Source: a virus. From it: a stretch of 20,899 bases of DNA. Where the stretch lies: positions 1-20,899 of the IMG/VR virus record IMGVR_UViG_3300021371_001263, one strand, 5' to 3'. The first letter of the stretch is position 1; every line of letters starts with the position of its first letter. The notes beneath the pieces were generated by a model, which saw only the letters and a program-made list of their open reading frames with translations, was not told the DNA's origin and did not search any database. The position numbers and the translations under genes are program-made. Of the stretch, positions 5,242 to 17,847 are shown piece after piece.

Positions 5242-5978
5242 GATGACATTACTTTTTCAAATCTTCTAACTACCTTTTGTATGATTGCAGGATCGATTAC
5301 TTTAATCAATCGTTTTTCTTCATTCAATTCATATTCATAGTCGTAAAGTGTTACACTAGTATATCCAGCAGTCGGAACATTAGTATAAAGTCCGTTTGTT
5401 TTATTATAATAATGTTTGACACCATCTCTATGTTCTATTATACTTGTTGGTGTCATTGTTTTGTTACTTATTTTTCCTGTGATAGTTTCGCCTGATACAA
5501 ATCCCCTACCTTCAATTGCAATTCTTTTATTTTGAGAATCTACTTCTATGACATTTCCTGTACCACTAATACTAGTTACTTTTTCTCCTAGTAAAAACTT
5601 ACTGACTACGTGTTGACCTGTGTTTGAAGTAGATGTAGATAATATATCTGTTGTATTTGATGCTATTGCATAAACACCAGCATACTTCTGACTGATATAC
5701 TTTTCAAAGGTTTCGTTGTCTTTATGCCAATCGTAATAGTTATCAAAGTCGTTTACTAAGTAGAATGTCCAATGAAGATCACCATCACCATAAAGTTTTG
5801 ATGCTACAATATCTGGTCTTTCACCATCTTGAATCTCATACCTTGTATATTGTACGATACTATCTACTGCTTCTTGCTCAATCTTTGACTTTCTAAAAAA
5901 GTCTTTGATAGATACAATCTTACCATTAGATAATTTATATTGTAATTCTGGAAAGTTTTGAAAGTATTGATTTGCCAT
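5238..5978 (-). CDS. gp53: Baseplate wedge protein gp53
   Basis: 246 residues; T4 gp53 is 196. The N-terminal half shows the gp53 family signature: YFQNFPELQY near residues 5-14, then DIVASKLYGDGDLHWTFYLVND around 57-78, which resembles a LysM-like fold, followed by the DYYDWHKDNETF segment. The middle (about 120-170) is beta-rich (VVSKFLLGEKVT, RGFVSGETITG). The C-terminus contains the KRLIKVIDPAII motif and a final basic helix. In T4, gp53 clamps neighbouring wedges so that the star-shaped baseplate can close. Its stop overlaps the start of the gp27-like gene (ATGA), and its start shares one base with the stop of the gp48-like gene. Confidence 0.85.
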   Translation of the reverse strand: MANQYFQNFPELQYKLSNGKIVSIKDFFRKSKIEQEAVDSIVQYTRYEIQDGERPDIVASKLYGDGDLHWTFYLVNDFDNYYDWHKDNETFEKYISQKYAGVYAIASNTTDILSTSTSNTGQHVVSKFLLGEKVTSISGTGNVIEVDSQNKRIAIEGRGFVSGETITGKISNKTMTPTSIIEHRDGVKHYYNKTNGLYTNVPTAGYTSVTLYDYEYELNEEKRLIKVIDPAIIQKVVRRFEKVMSS

Positions 5979-7138
5979 TAGAAACTAGGACCTCTGCCTT
6001 TATTAGAAGTTGTTCCACTATCTTGTTTATCACTTGTTGATTTTGGTTCAGTATATTTGTTAAGATTAGTATCTTCTCCTAATCTCTTGGTTTCATTTTC
6101 AAATGAATTATTTTCAATTGCTGAAATCTCTCTATAATTACTTTGAGTAAGCATTTTGATTTCTTGAAACTGAAGTGTAAGTGTTGTTTTAACTGGCATA
6201 CCATTTTCATAGGTTGAAAATTTTAAACCACCTGTATGATCTACTTGAGCATTTGTACACACTGCTGGTAGAAACCCATCAATCGCACTTCCTAATGGGC
6301 CATCAAAATAGATATCAAACACATTTGGATATGTAAAATAATCGGCAGTGACACTGTTTGCTTTTAGTACATCACCCACTGCTTCTCCAACACCCTCAAC
6401 ACTTGTACCATCTGTTGTTCCAGGTAGCATTGCCGTTCTGAATGTGTGTATAATGTTTTGCACTTGTGTTGCTTCGTCTTGTGATCTAGGAAAGAATTCA
6501 AAAGTGAAATCCCATGTTCTGAAATCTAGACCTTGAAGTAATTGCTCTTTAAGTGGATTAACTGCAATACCCTTTTTTAAGTTTTCTTGACCACCAGTCA
6601 ACTTGTTAATACCTTGTTGTATCATAGTGGGTAGTACAGTTGCCGCGGCACTTCTCGTTGCTAATCCCAAGTCTGCTTGTGGTGATGCAATTGCTGAAGC
6701 AATCTGCATTAATGCGGCACCCATTCTACTCATATCAGTACCACCATAAGATACACTTGCTTGAGATATTAAAGTGTCTGGTACATATAGTGCAACTGCT
6801 TTACGGCCTTCTGGATCAGTTCCCTCTGTTCCCGTATGTCTTGATCTTGTTTCAAAGACGATGTAATTATGTAAATCGTCGTGATAAGGATAAGTAAACT
6901 CAATCGTTGTATTGCTAGGCGTTTTCTTAATTGCTCTCTTAGTTTTGTTAGATGTGAGTTTATCTAACTCTTTGTTACGACTTAAGATATCTTTGATTGC
7001 TTTTTCTTTCTCTTCACCCAAGGCATCAATTGCAGTATTGTAGTTAATGTTCTGCAATTTACTTTGAATGCCTTTGAATGAATCAACTGCACCTTTGATT
7101 TTATTGAATTTTCCGATTAATTTGTCTATATATGCCAT
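5978..7138 (-). CDS. gp48: Baseplate tail-tube cap protein, gp48-like
   Basis: 386 residues, near the length of T4 gp48 (364). After a charged N-terminal ~75 residues comes a tube-protein-like region: the stretch around DLHNYIVFETRSRH (about 88-101), QLLQGLDFRTWDFTFEFFPRSQDEA (about 199-223), then YPNVFDIYFDGP and LKFSTYENGMPVKTTLTLQFQEI. This pattern (W.FTFEF.PRS..EA, then beta strands) is found in the gp48/gp54 tube-cap and initiator family, which tops the hub so the gp19 tube can polymerise. The last ~35 residues are polar and gly/ser rich. It is the first gene of the leftward operon; a near-consensus late promoter lies about 40 bases upstream. gp54 is the alternative name. Confidence 0.75.
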   Translation of the reverse strand: MAYIDKLIGKFNKIKGAVDSFKGIQSKLQNINYNTAIDALGEEKEKAIKDILSRNKELDKLTSNKTKRAIKKTPSNTTIEFTYPYHDDLHNYIVFETRSRHTGTEGTDPEGRKAVALYVPDTLISQASVSYGGTDMSRMGAALMQIASAIASPQADLGLATRSAAATVLPTMIQQGINKLTGGQENLKKGIAVNPLKEQLLQGLDFRTWDFTFEFFPRSQDEATQVQNIIHTFRTAMLPGTTDGTSVEGVGEAVGDVLKANSVTADYFTYPNVFDIYFDGPLGSAIDGFLPAVCTNAQVDHTGGLKFSTYENGMPVKTTLTLQFQEIKMLTQSNYREISAIENNSFENETKRLGEDTNLNKYTEPKSTSDKQDSGTTSNKGRGPSF

Positions 7139-7141
7139 GAG

Positions 7142-7149
7142 TATAAATA
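7142..7149 (+). promoter_or_regulatory. T4-type late promoter, rightward
   Basis: TATAAATA is an exact match to the T4 late promoter -10 element used by the gp55 sigma factor with gp33 and the sliding clamp. Transcription would begin about 24 bases before the gp4 start at 7180. The position in a 41-base divergent gap, and gp33 encoded in this window, support it. Confidence 0.75.
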
Positions 7150-7174: not shown

Positions 7175-7182
7175 TATTTATG
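7175..7182 (-). promoter_or_regulatory. Near-consensus late promoter, leftward
   Basis: On the minus strand this reads CATAAATA, 7 of 8 matches to the T4 late element. It would start transcription about 30 bases before the gp48-like start at 7138. It overlaps the gp4 start codon on the other strand, so the two late promoters face away from each other with overlapping transcribed ends. Confidence 0.55.
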
Positions 7183-7620
7183 TCGTATAGTGGCCGTTTT
7201 AAACCGAAGAACTACAAAAAATATAAAGGTGACCCTACCAAAATCTTTTATCGATCTCTTTTAGAACGTCGATTTATGAAATGGTGTGATGATAATGATA
7301 AAATTATTGAATGGGGAAGTGAAGAAATCGTTATACCATACAGATCGCCTGTTGACAAGAGAGTCCATCGTTACTTTCCTGACTTCTACGTAAAGTACGT
7401 GAACAAAGACAAGCAAACTGTACGAGAAATTATAGAAGTTAAACCTTACAAGCAATTATTTCCCCCTAAAAATCCAAATAGGAGAACTAAGAGATATCTT
7501 ACTGAGGTAACTACATACATGGTCAATCAGGCCAAGTTTAAGGCCGCACAAGAGTATTGTGATGATCGTAAGTATGTGTTTAGAATATTAACTGAGAAAG
7601 AAATCTTACCAAAAAAATGA
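7180..7620 (+). CDS. gp4: Head completion protein gp4 (gp50)
   Basis: 146 residues, close to T4 gp4 (150). Visible family features are the SYSGRFKPKNYKKYKGD start, IFYRSLLERRFMKWCD (about 22-37), IIEWGSEEIVIPY (about 42-54), then HRYFPDFYVKY (about 63-73) and IIEVKPYKQ (about 84-92). The last two resemble a PD-(D/E)XK nuclease core (D...EVKP), as recognised for the T4 gp4 and Tn7 TnsA-like nucleases. In T4, gp4 acts in head completion before tail joining. It is the first gene behind the rightward late promoter, and its stop overlaps the HAD start (ATGA), so the sugar-related genes that follow are probably co-expressed with it. Confidence 0.88.
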   Translation: MSYSGRFKPKNYKKYKGDPTKIFYRSLLERRFMKWCDDNDKIIEWGSEEIVIPYRSPVDKRVHRYFPDFYVKYVNKDKQTVREIIEVKPYKQLFPPKNPNRRTKRYLTEVTTYMVNQAKFKAAQEYCDDRKYVFRILTEKEILPKK

Positions 7621-8228
7621 AAAAATTATATGTATTCGATCTCGATGGTGTAATCATCGACTCTCTCCCAAATATGAAAATATCCTGGGGTGTTGTACAA
7701 CTCAATCATAAGATTGATGTGCCTTTTGAAGAATATGCCAAGCACATTGGTAAACCCTTTTATGATATACTTACAGAAATTGGTATAACAGAAGATCAAA
7801 CCAACATAAAGGCAACTTATGATAAGTCATCATCACAAGGTATTGACGAAGTTAAAATTTATCCTGGTGCTATCGACACTTTAAACACCTTGAAAGAAAG
7901 GGGGTGTAAAATAGCAATCTGTACATCTAAAGATGGAACTAGAGTTAGAGAAATACTCAAAGGTCTAAGAGACGACGGAAAACTATTGCCAGAATTCGAC
8001 TTTGTATGTTCGCCAAAAAGTGGTTTACGTGGAAAACCTTCACCTGATCAATTACTAAATACTATTGCATTCTGTAATGAAGACCCCAAAGACACAATTT
8101 ACATCGGGGACATGATAAGTGATTACGAATGCGCCCTACGAGCAGGGGTAGATTTTATACATGCAAAATATGGATATGGACAAGTGAAATGCGAACACTC
8201 AGTGGACCAGATAAACAAATTAATTTAA
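7617..8228 (+). CDS. HAD-superfamily phosphatase, capped
   Basis: 203 residues with all four HAD motifs: DLDGV (nucleophile D8, acid/base D10), the ICTS strand (T103/S104), K140 in GKPSP, and GDMISD (D165, D169). Residues ~15-80 form a small helical cap (C1 type), as in phosphoglycolate phosphatase and beta-phosphoglucomutase relatives. It probably removes phosphate from a small sugar or sugar-acid phosphate. The gene overlaps gp4 by four bases and is followed directly by a CMP-Kdo synthetase gene, which suggests it dephosphorylates an ulosonic acid 8-phosphate ahead of CMP activation. However, the cellular enzyme for that step, KdsC, lacks a cap, so this cannot be called KdsC from sequence. 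Substrate unknown. Confidence 0.85.
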   Translation: MKKLYVFDLDGVIIDSLPNMKISWGVVQLNHKIDVPFEEYAKHIGKPFYDILTEIGITEDQTNIKATYDKSSSQGIDEVKIYPGAIDTLNTLKERGCKIAICTSKDGTRVREILKGLRDDGKLLPEFDFVCSPKSGLRGKPSPDQLLNTIAFCNEDPKDTIYIGDMISDYECALRAGVDFIHAKYGYGQVKCEHSVDQINKLI

Positions 8229-8941
8229 CAGTTGGTATGATACCTGCGAGATGGGAGTCATCTCGTTATCCTGGTAAACCACTAGAACTCATCAATGGTA
8301 TACCCATGTTGAGACGTGTATATGATCAAGTACACATGTGTAAAAACATCGACACTATTGTTATATTAACAGATGATAATCGTATTCGACAATATTGTTC
8401 TGCAAATGAGTTACGTTGCATTGTAATTGAAAGTGATTGTGCTACAGGTACAGATAGATGTGCCCATGCACTTCAGTTATGTGATGGAAATAGATTCGTC
8501 AATATACAAGGTGACGAACCTCTGATCAACCCAGAAGCAATTGATAAATTAATAGAAGAACATGACGATAACATTGGTGTATCAAATGCTTATGTTAAAG
8601 TAAACGATGATTATAAACTGCATGATAAGAACGTTGTCAAAGTCATAACTAATAAAGGTAACATGGCACAATATTACAGTAGACTGCCTGTACCTTACAA
8701 TCAAAAAGAAGAGACTGACTTTAAACAACAACTAGGATTATACTGCTTCAATCGTGAATCGTTAGAGATGTTTAATAAGATAGAACGAGGTCCACTAGAA
8801 AGAGCAGAAAGTGTAGAAATGCTAAGATATCTAGAAATGGGGTTTAATGTAAAAATGGTAGAAGTCGATGATGAGGGTTTATCAGTTGATACACCTGAAG
8901 ACTTGAAAAGAGTAGAGGAACATTTGAATGCGTTTAACTAA
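8189..8941 (+). CDS. kdsB: CMP-Kdo synthetase (3-deoxy-manno-octulosonate cytidylyltransferase)
   Basis: KdsB joins CTP and Kdo to give CMP-Kdo and pyrophosphate, the activated sugar used in lipopolysaccharide core synthesis. From the 8189 start the product is 250 residues (E. coli KdsB: 248). Family motifs are in order: the nucleotide loop MIPARWESSRYPGKPL (17-32), ATGTDR (85-90), VNIQGDEPL (104-112, metal ligand D109), YYSRLPVPY (162-170), and GPLERAESVEMLRYLE then LSVDTPEDL (second metal Asp, D234). It reads as KdsB rather than the sialic-acid enzyme NeuA. In-frame starts exist at 8129, 8189 and 8237; 8237 would cut the first beta strand (LTVGMIPAR), so 8189 is preferred although it overlaps the HAD gene by 40 bases. 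No obvious catalytic loss. Confidence 0.92.
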   Translation: MRTLSGPDKQINLTVGMIPARWESSRYPGKPLELINGIPMLRRVYDQVHMCKNIDTIVILTDDNRIRQYCSANELRCIVIESDCATGTDRCAHALQLCDGNRFVNIQGDEPLINPEAIDKLIEEHDDNIGVSNAYVKVNDDYKLHDKNVVKVITNKGNMAQYYSRLPVPYNQKEETDFKQQLGLYCFNRESLEMFNKIERGPLERAESVEMLRYLEMGFNVKMVEVDDEGLSVDTPEDLKRVEEHLNAFN

Positions 8942-9860
8942 ATCTGAACCCATAGTTGCTGATACAGATTTTTCTGAGTTCAGACACTTCAACTTTCAAT
9001 GGGAACATCTAACTCAAGAGGCAAAAGACAAACACTTTGCTGATTTTAAAGCATGTTTTGAACAACTATCACAAACAGTAAAACCATATGTTGTAACTTA
9101 TGGTCAATTAGACAATGATGGCATGTTTGGTAACTACAGTTATACAGATGAACAGTTAAACAAGTACGTCGAACACTTTTTCAACAAAATGGACTTACGA
9201 ACAACTATAGATAATAAAACTGACTTACAAGATACAGATCATAACTGGGTATTTCATAAAATTAAGGTGCAATGGTTAGTCAATCAAGCACGTACAGTAG
9301 GTCTTTATAGTTTTATACAAGCAAGATTTAAGAAAATCCCTAATTACAATTTCAAACCATGGAAACAGACGAATCACGAAGGTGAAGTACATGTCCATCC
9401 CGGAATGTCGAGGGTTCATGCTATCAGACACATGAGAGATTGGGACCAAAAAGTAATTCTTTGGGATAAATGTGGTTACATGAGAGAATATGACCAAAAA
9501 CCATTAACGTTTGATGAATGGTATGGGTTATTTGACAATATAAACAAAACAATATTTGGTGCAATCATACCAGACGAGATTCTCGAAGTACATGTACAAG
9601 AAGATAGAAAGGGCATGTATAATGCAGTCAAAGACATTAAAGAAGGAATGTATAAGTCACTTAGGCCTTTACTAAAGGGTAAATGTGACGATGATATCAA
9701 AGACTTGTTTAGACACGAGGGAGAAGAGACAGGCGTTATTCTAGAAACACATAACGACTACATATTTACAAGAAACGATCTAAGAATGTTCTTAGACTTA
9801 TATCCAGGAGAGGTAGAGAGAGTACAAGATGGCAACAAATTCACAATCACAACCAAATAA
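8928..9860 (+). CDS. Unknown protein, HxHPG..R paralogue A, 310 aa
   Basis: Family not recognised. A central motif, HVHPGMSRVHAI (residues 155-166), is followed by a strand-like VILWD and then PLTFDEWYGLF (192-202). The C-terminus has a second conserved block, GEETGV (265-270) and YIFTRNDLRMFLD (278-290). All of these blocks recur in the same order in the next gene, so the two are diverged tandem duplicates. No signal peptide or membrane segment is seen; it is probably cytoplasmic. The start overlaps the end of kdsB by 14 bases, with a GAGG-type ribosome site in the kdsB end, so it is probably translated with kdsB. A role in using the CMP-sugar is possible by association only. Confidence 0.7.
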   Translation: MRLTKSEPIVADTDFSEFRHFNFQWEHLTQEAKDKHFADFKACFEQLSQTVKPYVVTYGQLDNDGMFGNYSYTDEQLNKYVEHFFNKMDLRTTIDNKTDLQDTDHNWVFHKIKVQWLVNQARTVGLYSFIQARFKKIPNYNFKPWKQTNHEGEVHVHPGMSRVHAIRHMRDWDQKVILWDKCGYMREYDQKPLTFDEWYGLFDNINKTIFGAIIPDEILEVHVQEDRKGMYNAVKDIKEGMYKSLRPLLKGKCDDDIKDLFRHEGEETGVILETHNDYIFTRNDLRMFLDLYPGEVERVQDGNKFTITTK

Positions 9861-10656
9861 AGAATACGAAACACTTGGCAGTATCAATGATGCAGGTGTA
9901 TTAGACGAAGTAAAAAGATTATGGAATGAAACTACATGTAAACCCAAGATTATGTCTTTGAGACATGCTATTGATCTGGGTTATGTTACAGATAACTTTT
10001 CAAAATGGACAGATCAACCATTTTCAAACTTCTTCGAAGATACTTGGGACCACAAAGACCATAAACTGCTTACGCATAAGCATTGGTTTTTACACCACGA
10101 CATTTTAGAGAAGGGATTATGGTCACCCCCTAATGGTGTGTTACGTAACGGAAACTTTATACACTTCCATCCTGGTGGAAATAGAATTAGAGCATTAGTT
10201 AGTGCTGATCTACTAGATGTTGATTTAATGATATGGGACCCTCTAAACAAATACGATAGTAAAGAATTAAACTTCGACGAATGGTTAAGTTACTTCGATA
10301 CAGACGATGAAACTAAAGATGAGAAAAACGATGTATGGTTCTCAAGGGTTCGTAAGTTCATTGGCGAAGAAGATACTTTGTTTATGTTAGAAGCACACAT
10401 CACACAAGGTTTAGATAAATTTAAAGATTGGGGTGAGACCATGGAGTCCATGCTCAATCATACAAAACCTAAACTACTCAATTACTACGATGAAGAACTT
10501 GCAAGTGTAGTACACTTTGATGGCGAAGAGCATGGTGTTGAAATCTATGTTAAAGACAATCAAACGTTTACTAAGAAAGATTTGAACTTGTTAATTCACG
10601 TATCTGATAAAATTAAAACTTTTGAAAATAATAAGGTAATTATTACAGTCAAGTAG
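9829..10656 (+). CDS. Unknown protein, HxHPG..R paralogue B, 275 aa
   Basis: Family not recognised; paralogue of the preceding protein. Shared blocks: FIHFHPGGNRIRAL (110-123), LMIWDPLN (133-140), ELNFDEWLSYF (146-156), then GEEHGVEIY (232-240), TFTKKDLNLLI (246-256) and a similar terminal strand (VIITVK against FTITTK). Identity outside these blocks is low, so the duplication is old or the pair came in together. An additional His-rich stretch, HKHWFLHHD (83-91), sits before the motif. The invariant histidines, Pro-Gly and Arg could form a catalytic or ligand site. The start lies 32 bases inside the previous gene in another frame; the two are co-transcribed. Not membrane-bound by sequence. 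Confidence 0.7.
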   Translation: MATNSQSQPNKEYETLGSINDAGVLDEVKRLWNETTCKPKIMSLRHAIDLGYVTDNFSKWTDQPFSNFFEDTWDHKDHKLLTHKHWFLHHDILEKGLWSPPNGVLRNGNFIHFHPGGNRIRALVSADLLDVDLMIWDPLNKYDSKELNFDEWLSYFDTDDETKDEKNDVWFSRVRKFIGEEDTLFMLEAHITQGLDKFKDWGETMESMLNHTKPKLLNYYDEELASVVHFDGEEHGVEIYVKDNQTFTKKDLNLLIHVSDKIKTFENNKVIITVK

Positions 10657-10670
10657 TCATAAATAGTAGT

Positions 10671-11255
10671 ATGAGTCTACTAGAAAGATTACAGAAAGAA
10701 AGTCCTAAAGAACTTGCTAAACGATCATACGATAGTATGAATTGGTTTAGAAAAAGAGTTCAAAGAATGCGTATTCCTGCTAGACGATTCTATCAAACAT
10801 CGGGCATAGAAAAAACTGACCGATATATTGATGGTAAGATGTACATGTATTTCTATGATGCTAAGACACAAGACAAATTGCCTTATTGGGACAGATTTCC
10901 TTGTGTAATTGTAATCGAAGATTATAGAGATGGTTCGTTTTTAGGAATGAACTTACATTATATACCACCAAGATATCGTATTCGTTTATTAGACGGATTG
11001 TTTGAATATACAAATAACGAAAAGTTTGATGAGACTACTAGAATACGTATGACTTACCAATTACTCACTTCAGTAGCAAAATTAAAGTGGGCAAAACCAT
11101 GTATCAAAAAGTATCTCAAGTCAAACATTGTTGGCAATGCGTTAGATGTCGATCCAGAATATTGGGATCTCATTGCGTTATTGCCAGTAACACAGTTTCA
11201 AAAAGAAAATGCTAACAAAGTTTATGCATATGCTAAAAAAGAAATATACGGGTAA
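10671..11255 (+). CDS. Conserved T4-like phage protein, 194 aa, function unknown
   Basis: The N-terminus is basic (NWFRKRVQRMRIPARR, about 24-39). The middle carries a distinctive block, DKLPYWDRFPCVIVIEDY (about 68-85), then FLGMNLHYIPPRYRIRLLDGL (about 90-110). I have a memory of this PYWDRFP...GxNxHYxPP pattern as a recurrent protein in marine T4-like phages, near head-completion and tail genes, but cannot name its function. A DNA-end protector (gp2-like) or a neck/tail protein would fit the location, with low confidence. It begins 14 bases after the second paralogue and ends 3 bases before the tube-family gene. No transmembrane segment. Confidence 0.65.
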   Translation: MSLLERLQKESPKELAKRSYDSMNWFRKRVQRMRIPARRFYQTSGIEKTDRYIDGKMYMYFYDAKTQDKLPYWDRFPCVIVIEDYRDGSFLGMNLHYIPPRYRIRLLDGLFEYTNNEKFDETTRIRMTYQLLTSVAKLKWAKPCIKKYLKSNIVGNALDVDPEYWDLIALLPVTQFQKENANKVYAYAKKEIYG

Positions 11256-17094: not shown

Positions 17095-17100
17095 GCATTA
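17095..17100 (-). promoter_or_regulatory. Possible gp32 promoter -10 box
   Basis: TATAAT on the minus strand overlaps the stop of the upstream gene, about 30 bases before the gp32 start. No clear -35 or MotA-type box is seen 17 bases farther up, so this is weak. Confidence 0.25.
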
Positions 17101-17847
17101 TATTAGCATTTTATCTAAAGACTCTAGACCTTGACCTAGAATCCACTTATCTTCGACATTAAATCGAGATACTATATCAGTATACTTGATTCTGTCGAAT
17201 CCGTCAATAGGGTTTTTAAAGTATAACTCTACATTCGGATACTCTTTATTTATGTATTCTAAAAGAGCAATAAATTGTGCTTTTTGCACATCACCAACTC
17301 CAGAATGATACGTATAATTATCTCTGTAGTTGTATTGTCCTTTGAATACATTCTCTACTTGATCGAACTGTAATGAGTCATAACCAAGTAAACATATCTC
17401 TTTATAACCGTGATCTACTGCATAACCTAGAGCATACATGCCTGATAACATGTTCTTGAACTCTGGTTTTTTATATATAACTATGTTATCTTGATGGGTA
17501 GTACTATATCCAGTGAAGTAATGTCTCCCATCACATGCACCTGTAGTCAACTCTGACTGCATCACAAATGCATTGTCGTCTGGTCGGCGAGTCTCGACTG
17601 TCTCACCATCTATTCCCATCTTAATCATTTCCCATGCATCAATAGGCAGTTCGTTCCATTCTCCCATTACTACTTTGTTAGTCTTGTAGTATTCATCTTC
17701 TATGATTTTATGTTGTGGATATACGTCACCACAAAACACTAAGTCAGGTGTATGAGTAGTGTAGATCATGTTAAACCCCCACCATTCACCTAGTGCATCT
17801 AAGTCCAGATCTTTCCTTGATGGTCCATTACCTACTAAGTAGAGCAT
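17098..17847 (-). CDS. GT42-like (sialyltransferase-type) glycosyltransferase candidate, 249 aa
   Basis: The N-terminus has a nucleotide-binding strand and turn, YLVGNGPSRKDLDLDALG (3-20). Farther on come LSGMYALGYAVDHGYKEICLLGYDS (134-158) and YHSGVGDVQKAQFIALLEYI (180-199). The order and wording match what I recall of Campylobacter CstII (family GT42): GNGPSLKEID, then SGVYMCAVAIALGYKEIYLSGID, then GHSKNTDIKALEFL, where the histidine is catalytic; the counterpart here is H181. GT42 enzymes transfer sugars from CMP donors, so a CMP-Kdo-type donor from the KdsB encoded here is a fair guess. Alternatives are DUF115/MptE-like proteins of the same fold. It is placed between gp59 (13-base overlap) and gp32, which are adjacent in T4, so it looks like an insertion. 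Confidence 0.62.
   Translation of the reverse strand: MLYLVGNGPSRKDLDLDALGEWWGFNMIYTTHTPDLVFCGDVYPQHKIIEDEYYKTNKVVMGEWNELPIDAWEMIKMGIDGETVETRRPDDNAFVMQSELTTGACDGRHYFTGYSTTHQDNIVIYKKPEFKNMLSGMYALGYAVDHGYKEICLLGYDSLQFDQVENVFKGQYNYRDNYTYHSGVGDVQKAQFIALLEYINKEYPNVELYFKNPIDGFDRIKYTDIVSRFNVEDKWILGQGLESLDKMLI

Follow-up and report, generated by a model that had tools for sequence, protein, structure and literature searches.

Background

Kdo-8-phosphate phosphatase (KdsC) is a capless (C0) HAD protein of the YrbI type. In solved structures of KdsB, the C-terminal domain binds Kdo (PMC3149649). Phages are known to carry LPS genes (PMC9529941, PMC3037559), and the glycosyltransferases of pelagimyophages are usually read as tools of host-surface remodelling (PMC7029224). 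Cytidylyltransferases found in cyanophage virions were described as glycerol-3-phosphate or NMNAT-like (PMC9146016, PMC9602691); we rejected them as relatives of the protein studied here, as they are of different types and not of the KdsB-like family. Here we describe a gene cassette in a 20,899-base record of an uncultured virus from IMG/VR, a marine T4-like phage; this whole stretch of DNA is called the window below. The gp4 and single-strand-binding proteins of the window are at most about 66% and about 54% identical, respectively, to their counterparts in the best-ranked isolates.

Gene layout of the window

The features discussed below are the following.

7142-7149, + strand: TATAAATA, T4-type late promoter motif, the sole + strand copy in the window
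7180-7620, + strand: gp4, head completion/closure (PHROG 218, 5.6e-58)
7617-8228, + strand: HAD phosphatase with helical cap, proposed ulosonic-acid-phosphate phosphatase (PF13419, 1.2e-28)
8189-8941, + strand: KdsB-like protein, putative CMP-ulosonate synthetase of the non-canonical Asn121/Gln169/Met199 type (PF02348, 2.3e-41; residues; tree)
8928-9860, + strand: ORF310, the constant third gene of the cassette, possible ParB/sulfiredoxin-like fold (54-sequence alignment; model)
9829-10656, + strand: ORF275, paralogue of ORF310 (BLASTP, 26% over 171 aa, 9e-14)
10671-11255, + strand: gp2, DNA end protector, right border of the cassette (PHROG 429, 3.8e-50)
17098-17847, - strand: candidate CMP-sugar transferase with GT42 (CstII-like) fold, overlapping gp59 (Foldseek, VIA, profile, co-occurrence)

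The six + strand genes from gp4 to gp2 are consecutive, and gp4, HAD and KdsB-like also overlap; both the positions of the two enzyme genes and their coupling to gp4 agree with a preliminary description of this DNA. The HAD ORF has 203 aa. The KdsB-like ORF opens at 8129, and a start at ATG 8189 gives 250 aa with the end at 8941; this start is the likely one, because the resulting overlap with HAD (40-52 nt) recurs in relatives. The preliminary description did not contain ORF310 and ORF275, which lie between the KdsB-like gene and gp2, nor the sialyltransferase-fold ORF at 17098-17847.

The gp4-gp2 block in other phages

An alignment-based scan of IMG/VR returned 529 KdsB relatives, the best 80 of which were inspected for arrangement. 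As far as their contigs extend, all of these 80 have the same arrangement, at 55-100% identity. They collapse to 56 distinct loci from uncultured marine T4-like phages with the order gp4–HAD–KdsB-like–ORF310(–ORF275)–gp2, and gp4 overlaps HAD by 4 nt (ATGA) in 53 of them. A control search was started from gp4 instead of the KdsB-like protein. HAD, KdsB-like and ORF310 were present in 9 of the 80 gp4 relatives so obtained, one of them ending at the contig edge after HAD; apart from this contig, no partial block was found among the 80. Many gp4 relatives without the block have gp2 immediately behind gp4. The cassette is all-or-none and is passed on as a unit in the slot from gp4 to gp2. It is absent from a collection of 50,697 phage records, in which the closest KdsB is 37% identical and has different surroundings. 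Neither ORF310 nor ORF275 was found in the INPHARED phage records.

The late promoter motif noticed earlier ahead of gp4, HAD and KdsB-like is present 38 nt upstream of gp4 and was kept in relatives: in 42 of 55 related loci, TATAAATA stands no more than 120 nt ahead of gp4, where simple arithmetic gives an expectation of about 0.8. A conserved TATAAATA upstream of a late gene is what characterizes a T4 late operon. On motif and operon position alone, the HAD and KdsB-like genes would be expressed late. Between gp4 and the divergent gene at 5978-7138, TATAAATA (+ strand, 7142) and CATAAATA (- strand, 7175) stand back to back, and this placement suggests a bidirectional late promoter.

The two enzymes

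The four HAD motifs are invariant in 21 relatives of the HAD protein. It matches models and structures of capped HAD_2 proteins and phosphoglycolate phosphatases, of the helical-cap type; it does not have the capless C0 fold and does not belong to KdsC. These matches bear out the earlier remark that the HAD is not of KdsC type.

The KdsB-like protein passes the broader NCBIfam model NF003952 (243.9 bits, cut-off 193), and its best matches among solved structures are KpsU/KdsB entries of the PDB (1.9e-38). It stays below the equivalog cut-offs of TIGR00466 (144.7 against 155.2) and NF003948 (168.3 against 281). Residues are numbered with the Leu codon at 8225 as 1. Both metal aspartates, D97 and D222, are intact, as are K18, R9, R14, Q95 and R153, and the CTP/metal residues R9, K18, Q95, D97 and D222 are invariant in all 55 phage sequences (one truncated row has a gap at D222). 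The C-terminal domain also contains three positions that are fixed in the 55 phage sequences: Asn121, versus Thr or Ser in most cellular KdsB; Gln169 (55/55), versus His in 78 of the 80 closest cellular KdsB; and Met199 (55/55), versus Gln in 73 of the 80. None of the 55 has the His169 and Gln199 of canonical KdsB.

In a maximum-likelihood tree (a larger quick tree was also run), the phage KdsB-like sequences form one clade with 100/99 support. Together with bacterial sequences of the Gln169 type (Q-type) described below and one from Streptomyces, they are split from all 46 canonical rows, again with 100/99, and so from the LPS-type KdsB clade. By these trees, the phage enzyme is a single old clade and not the result of repeated recent capture from hosts. 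The preliminary description had called the protein a complete-looking KdsB and had proposed a tree as a check. The catalytic residues are invariant and the CTP/metal residues intact; yet the name of a complete KdsB does not hold, as the clade lies outside all sampled canonical KdsB, below TIGR00466 and NF003948, and differs at residues 121, 169 and 199. The enzyme class is strongly supported by these comparisons, whereas the substrate and target are inferred.

The median dN/dS of close pairs is 0.15 for HAD, 0.145 for the KdsB-like gene, 0.18 for ORF310 and 0.04 for gp4. By this measure, the HAD and KdsB-like genes are under purifying selection. The comparisons support the view that the cassette encodes two putatively intact enzymes of CMP-ulosonate supply under selection. 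One might also regard them as passengers, that is, a host-derived metabolic cassette kept for lying between essential genes and without a role in glycosylation, and the absence of the cassette from most gp4 relatives is consistent with that. However, a median dN/dS of about 0.15, the invariant catalytic residues of both proteins and the single old clade in place of repeated host capture all argue against passenger genes, and we consider this explanation highly improbable.

At L005:5907-8737, Marine virus AG-345-D19 has a strongly divergent KdsB-like gene that again encodes Gln at 169 and adjoins small ORFs that, judged by eye, are sugar-isomerase-like and HAD-like.

Aldolase-associated cytidylyltransferases in bacteria and viruses

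Among the 80 closest cellular sequences, Asn121/Gln169 is found only in Streptomyces mashuensis (with Met199) and Halomonas salipaludis (with Ile199). In Halomonas, the gene is a second copy, besides another KdsB, and its neighbors encode an HMGL-like aldolase, a HAD protein and a capsule-synthesis protein (aldolase/KdsB-like/HAD operon at L130:3361-8493; similar loci L375-L387). In 391 genomes of the same order, 15 loci of the Asn/Gln/(Ile,Leu) type were found, Halomonas included. Of these 15 Q-type loci, 13 have an aldolase neighbor and 12 a HAD neighbor, and in some of them the HAD gene directly precedes the cytidylyltransferase, as in the phage. In five canonical KdsB loci, neither an aldolase (0/5) nor a HAD gene (0/5) is adjacent. 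BLAST gave a single weak match to the phage HAD near KdsB at the 80 closest cellular loci; the HAD of Halomonas was missed in this search because it is too divergent for BLAST. Another scan yielded 29 distinct proteins from viruses that fuse an aldolase to the cytidylyltransferase (L395-L437; for example, L401:1014-2726 in a 271 kb IMG/VR contig). Residues 121/169/199 are Asn/Gln/Ile in 39 of 40 such viral loci and Asn/Gln/Val in the remaining one.

The cytidylyltransferase subfamily works beside a pyruvate-type aldolase; therefore, its substrate would be a 3-deoxy-ulosonic acid, which need not be Kdo. The preliminary description had suggested that the true substrate may be another ulosonic acid, and this suggestion is strengthened by the separate clade, the altered residues of the sugar domain and the bacterial subfamily with its adjoining HAD. 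A search of 17 phage contigs turned up no aldolase (PF00682), KdsA or SIS isomerase; the acid would therefore have to be supplied by the host.

These data bear on a simpler possibility, namely ordinary CMP-Kdo synthesis, with the HAD in the place of KdsC and the phage topping up or altering the Kdo of host LPS late. The residue changes would then reflect lineage drift or dimer contacts. The pass of NF003952, the fully intact nucleotide and metal residues, the KdsA/KdsB pairs carried by phages (S-SCSM2R) and the phage LPS genes cited above count in its favor. Against it count the failed TIGR00466 and NF003948 cut-offs, the place of the phage enzyme outside all sampled canonical KdsB (100/99), the exchange of the cellular His and Gln for Gln and Met in every phage sequence, and the retention by Halomonas of the Asn121/Gln169 type beside another KdsB. 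We regard CMP-Kdo synthesis as rather unlikely; judged from sequence, the product is more likely another CMP-3-deoxy-ulosonate.

In the open-access literature, we found no description of the bacterial aldolase-cytidylyltransferase-HAD operon, and none of a distinct Q-type subfamily or of the block at gp4-gp2. As far as this literature goes, the block and the subfamily appear to be new; phage KdsB and LPS genes were already known.

The HMGL aldolase of the bacterial operons (L130, L375-L387) carries an extra C-terminal domain. Kinship of this domain with GT42 was considered and is taken as unproven, as the single sequence failed and the family profile gave only a 29-column match at 45%; kinship with ORF310 was rejected by profile comparison. 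In the Gram-positive S. mashuensis (L128:2775-5705), the phage-type KdsB-like gene adjoins S-adenosylhomocysteine-hydrolase-like and sugar-epimerase-like genes, and this locus is perhaps a secondary-metabolite cluster.

ORF310 and ORF275

ORF310 has 12 invariant columns in 54 sequences, including HPGxxR, WD and ExH. Its AlphaFold2 model (pLDDT 88) has no strong structural match. The weak fold matches are mostly to Noc, ParB, Srx and PadC (Z 2-4, none with E < 0.001), and in a comparison of motifs by eye, HPGxxR sits about where ParB has its GERR motif. From this model, a ParB/sulfiredoxin-like fold is possible. Seven cassette contigs contain ORFs of 515-560 aa that join the ORF310 domain to a GT24/GT8-like glycosyltransferase (L114:5284-6849 and L125:10434-11978, both on the - strand, and L474-L478), which ties ORF310 to glycan transfer. 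The glycosyltransferase part is similar (31%) to the glycosyltransferase near KdsB in S-SCSM2R. Three large contigs without the cassette yielded no homologue of ORF310.

On their contigs, these fusions are encoded at a long distance from the cassette. ORF275 is a second ORF310-type copy in tandem with ORF310 and is present in a minority of the related phages. Hypothetical proteins beside the S-SCSM2R KdsB have similar motifs, but their homology to ORF310 was dropped at a profile comparison probability of 0.3%.

A candidate transferase

The model of the protein encoded at 17098-17847 is of low confidence as a whole (pLDDT 62), with core parts at 80-90. This low-confidence model has a CstII-like fold. 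CstII or Pasteurella sialyltransferases fill the first eleven places in its Foldseek ranking (3e-5 to 7e-4; probability 1.00 for CstII), and VIA alignment with CstII gives Z 8.7 over 172 residues. CstII also comes first among solved structures in a search with a 22-member family profile (0.004). The Pfam model CST-I (PF06002) matched one of the 22 members, below cut-off (14.5 against a gathering threshold of 25 bits). By fold, Maf glycosyltransferase comes out almost as high, as do thiamin pyrophosphokinases, which belong to the same superfamily; therefore, the fold alone is no proof of transfer. The family has no invariant His, and its alignment is ambiguous at the catalytic His188 of CstII.

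Judged by contig ends, 15 cassette contigs reach far enough to contain the candidate gene; 13 of them have it, 7.5-10 kb downstream of the cassette, against 2 of 15 cassette-less contigs (Fisher p 1.5e-4, or 4.4e-4 without near copies; kinship is ignored, so that the counts are not independent). It also occurs in the cassette-less phages HTVC008M, G017 and G027. In HTVC008M, a distant homologue lies near gp59 and gp32, and a search of the phage collection found no KdsB or ORF310 match in this phage. Another virus has a homologue of the transferase (hhalign 98.6%) whose gene overlaps a KdsB-like gene at the start of the latter. In a third virus, the gene two places ahead of an aldolase-cytidylyltransferase fusion encodes a GT29 sialyltransferase (Pfam 2.6e-13). 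The candidate transferase and the cassette are associated, not inseparable.

The candidate gene lies beside replication genes, antisense to gp59 and outside the late operon. Its place among replication genes and not virion genes and the published reading of pelagimyophage glycosyltransferases (PMC7029224) both favor the host surface over the virion as the target. The CMP-ulosonate would then be used on host glycans, excluding sister phages or freeing progeny from debris. Yet in every related locus the cassette lies between two virion-completion genes, and its position in the late operon between gp4 and gp2 slightly favors virion components. We rate host-surface remodelling as a serious contender, if somewhat short of even odds.

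Proposed pathway

Our main reading, to which we give a probability of roughly 55%, is a late-expressed module that makes a CMP-sugar donor, together with a transferase; the sugar is probably not Kdo, and the acid is supplied by the host. The HAD would strip the phosphate from a host-derived 3-deoxy-ulosonic acid phosphate. The KdsB-like enzyme, going by its residues, would use CTP to attach CMP to the freed acid through a two-metal mechanism. The clade, the sugar-domain residues and the association with aldolases suggest that this acid is probably not Kdo. The GT42-fold protein, considering its fold and co-occurrence, may move the sugar to the acceptor, and ORF310, whose domain is elsewhere fused to a glycosyltransferase, could conceivably aid acceptor recognition or tailoring. 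Late expression behind TATAAATA would fit decoration during virion assembly or a late change of the host surface. A bolder version of the main reading, with an own CMP-ulosonate pathway for a sugar that is neither Kdo nor a known sialic acid, late decoration of virions, and ORF310 as a new glycosylation protein of ParB/sulfiredoxin-like fold, appears doubtful as a whole.

The analysis turns a vague phage "KdsB" label into a testable pathway: a step that makes the CMP-sugar donor, a candidate transferase that can be named, and ORF310 as a third protein that constantly accompanies the donor genes across a large uncultured phage group. It also sets apart, in bacteria and viruses, a subfamily that database models score as KdsB from the true CMP-Kdo synthetases. 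Separating this subfamily would correct annotations as well as Kdo-based inferences on viral metabolic genes. If the virions carry an ulosonic acid, this would bear on phage adsorption and decay in the ocean.

Comparison with known systems

CstI and CstII (GT42) have the fold and the N-terminal GNGPS and SG...G.D motifs in common with the 17098-17847 protein; however, the latter is below the Pfam cut-off, and the catalytic His is not clearly conserved in it. Cyanophage S-SCSM2R, likewise marine and T4-like, has a KdsB-like gene close to that of a glycosyltransferase, but its KdsB is 28% identical, has the canonical His, is accompanied by KdsA and lies outside the gp4-gp2 slot. The viral fusions are of the phage residue type, also viral, and 36-39% identical to the KdsB-like protein of the window, but they are fused to an aldolase and also lie outside the gp4-gp2 slot. 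The bacterial HMGL-aldolase/KdsB-like/HAD operons share with the phage the clade, Asn121/Gln169 and a HAD that is usually adjacent. Unlike the phages, they have Ile or Leu at position 199 and encode an aldolase, and the Halomonas operon is set in a capsule-type cluster. Finally, canonical KdsB/KpsU (EC 2.7.7.38) and the phage enzyme have the family and the CTP/two-metal residues in common, whereas the phage enzyme is distinguished by its HAD neighbor, its place in a phage late operon, its separate clade and Asn121/Gln169/Met199.
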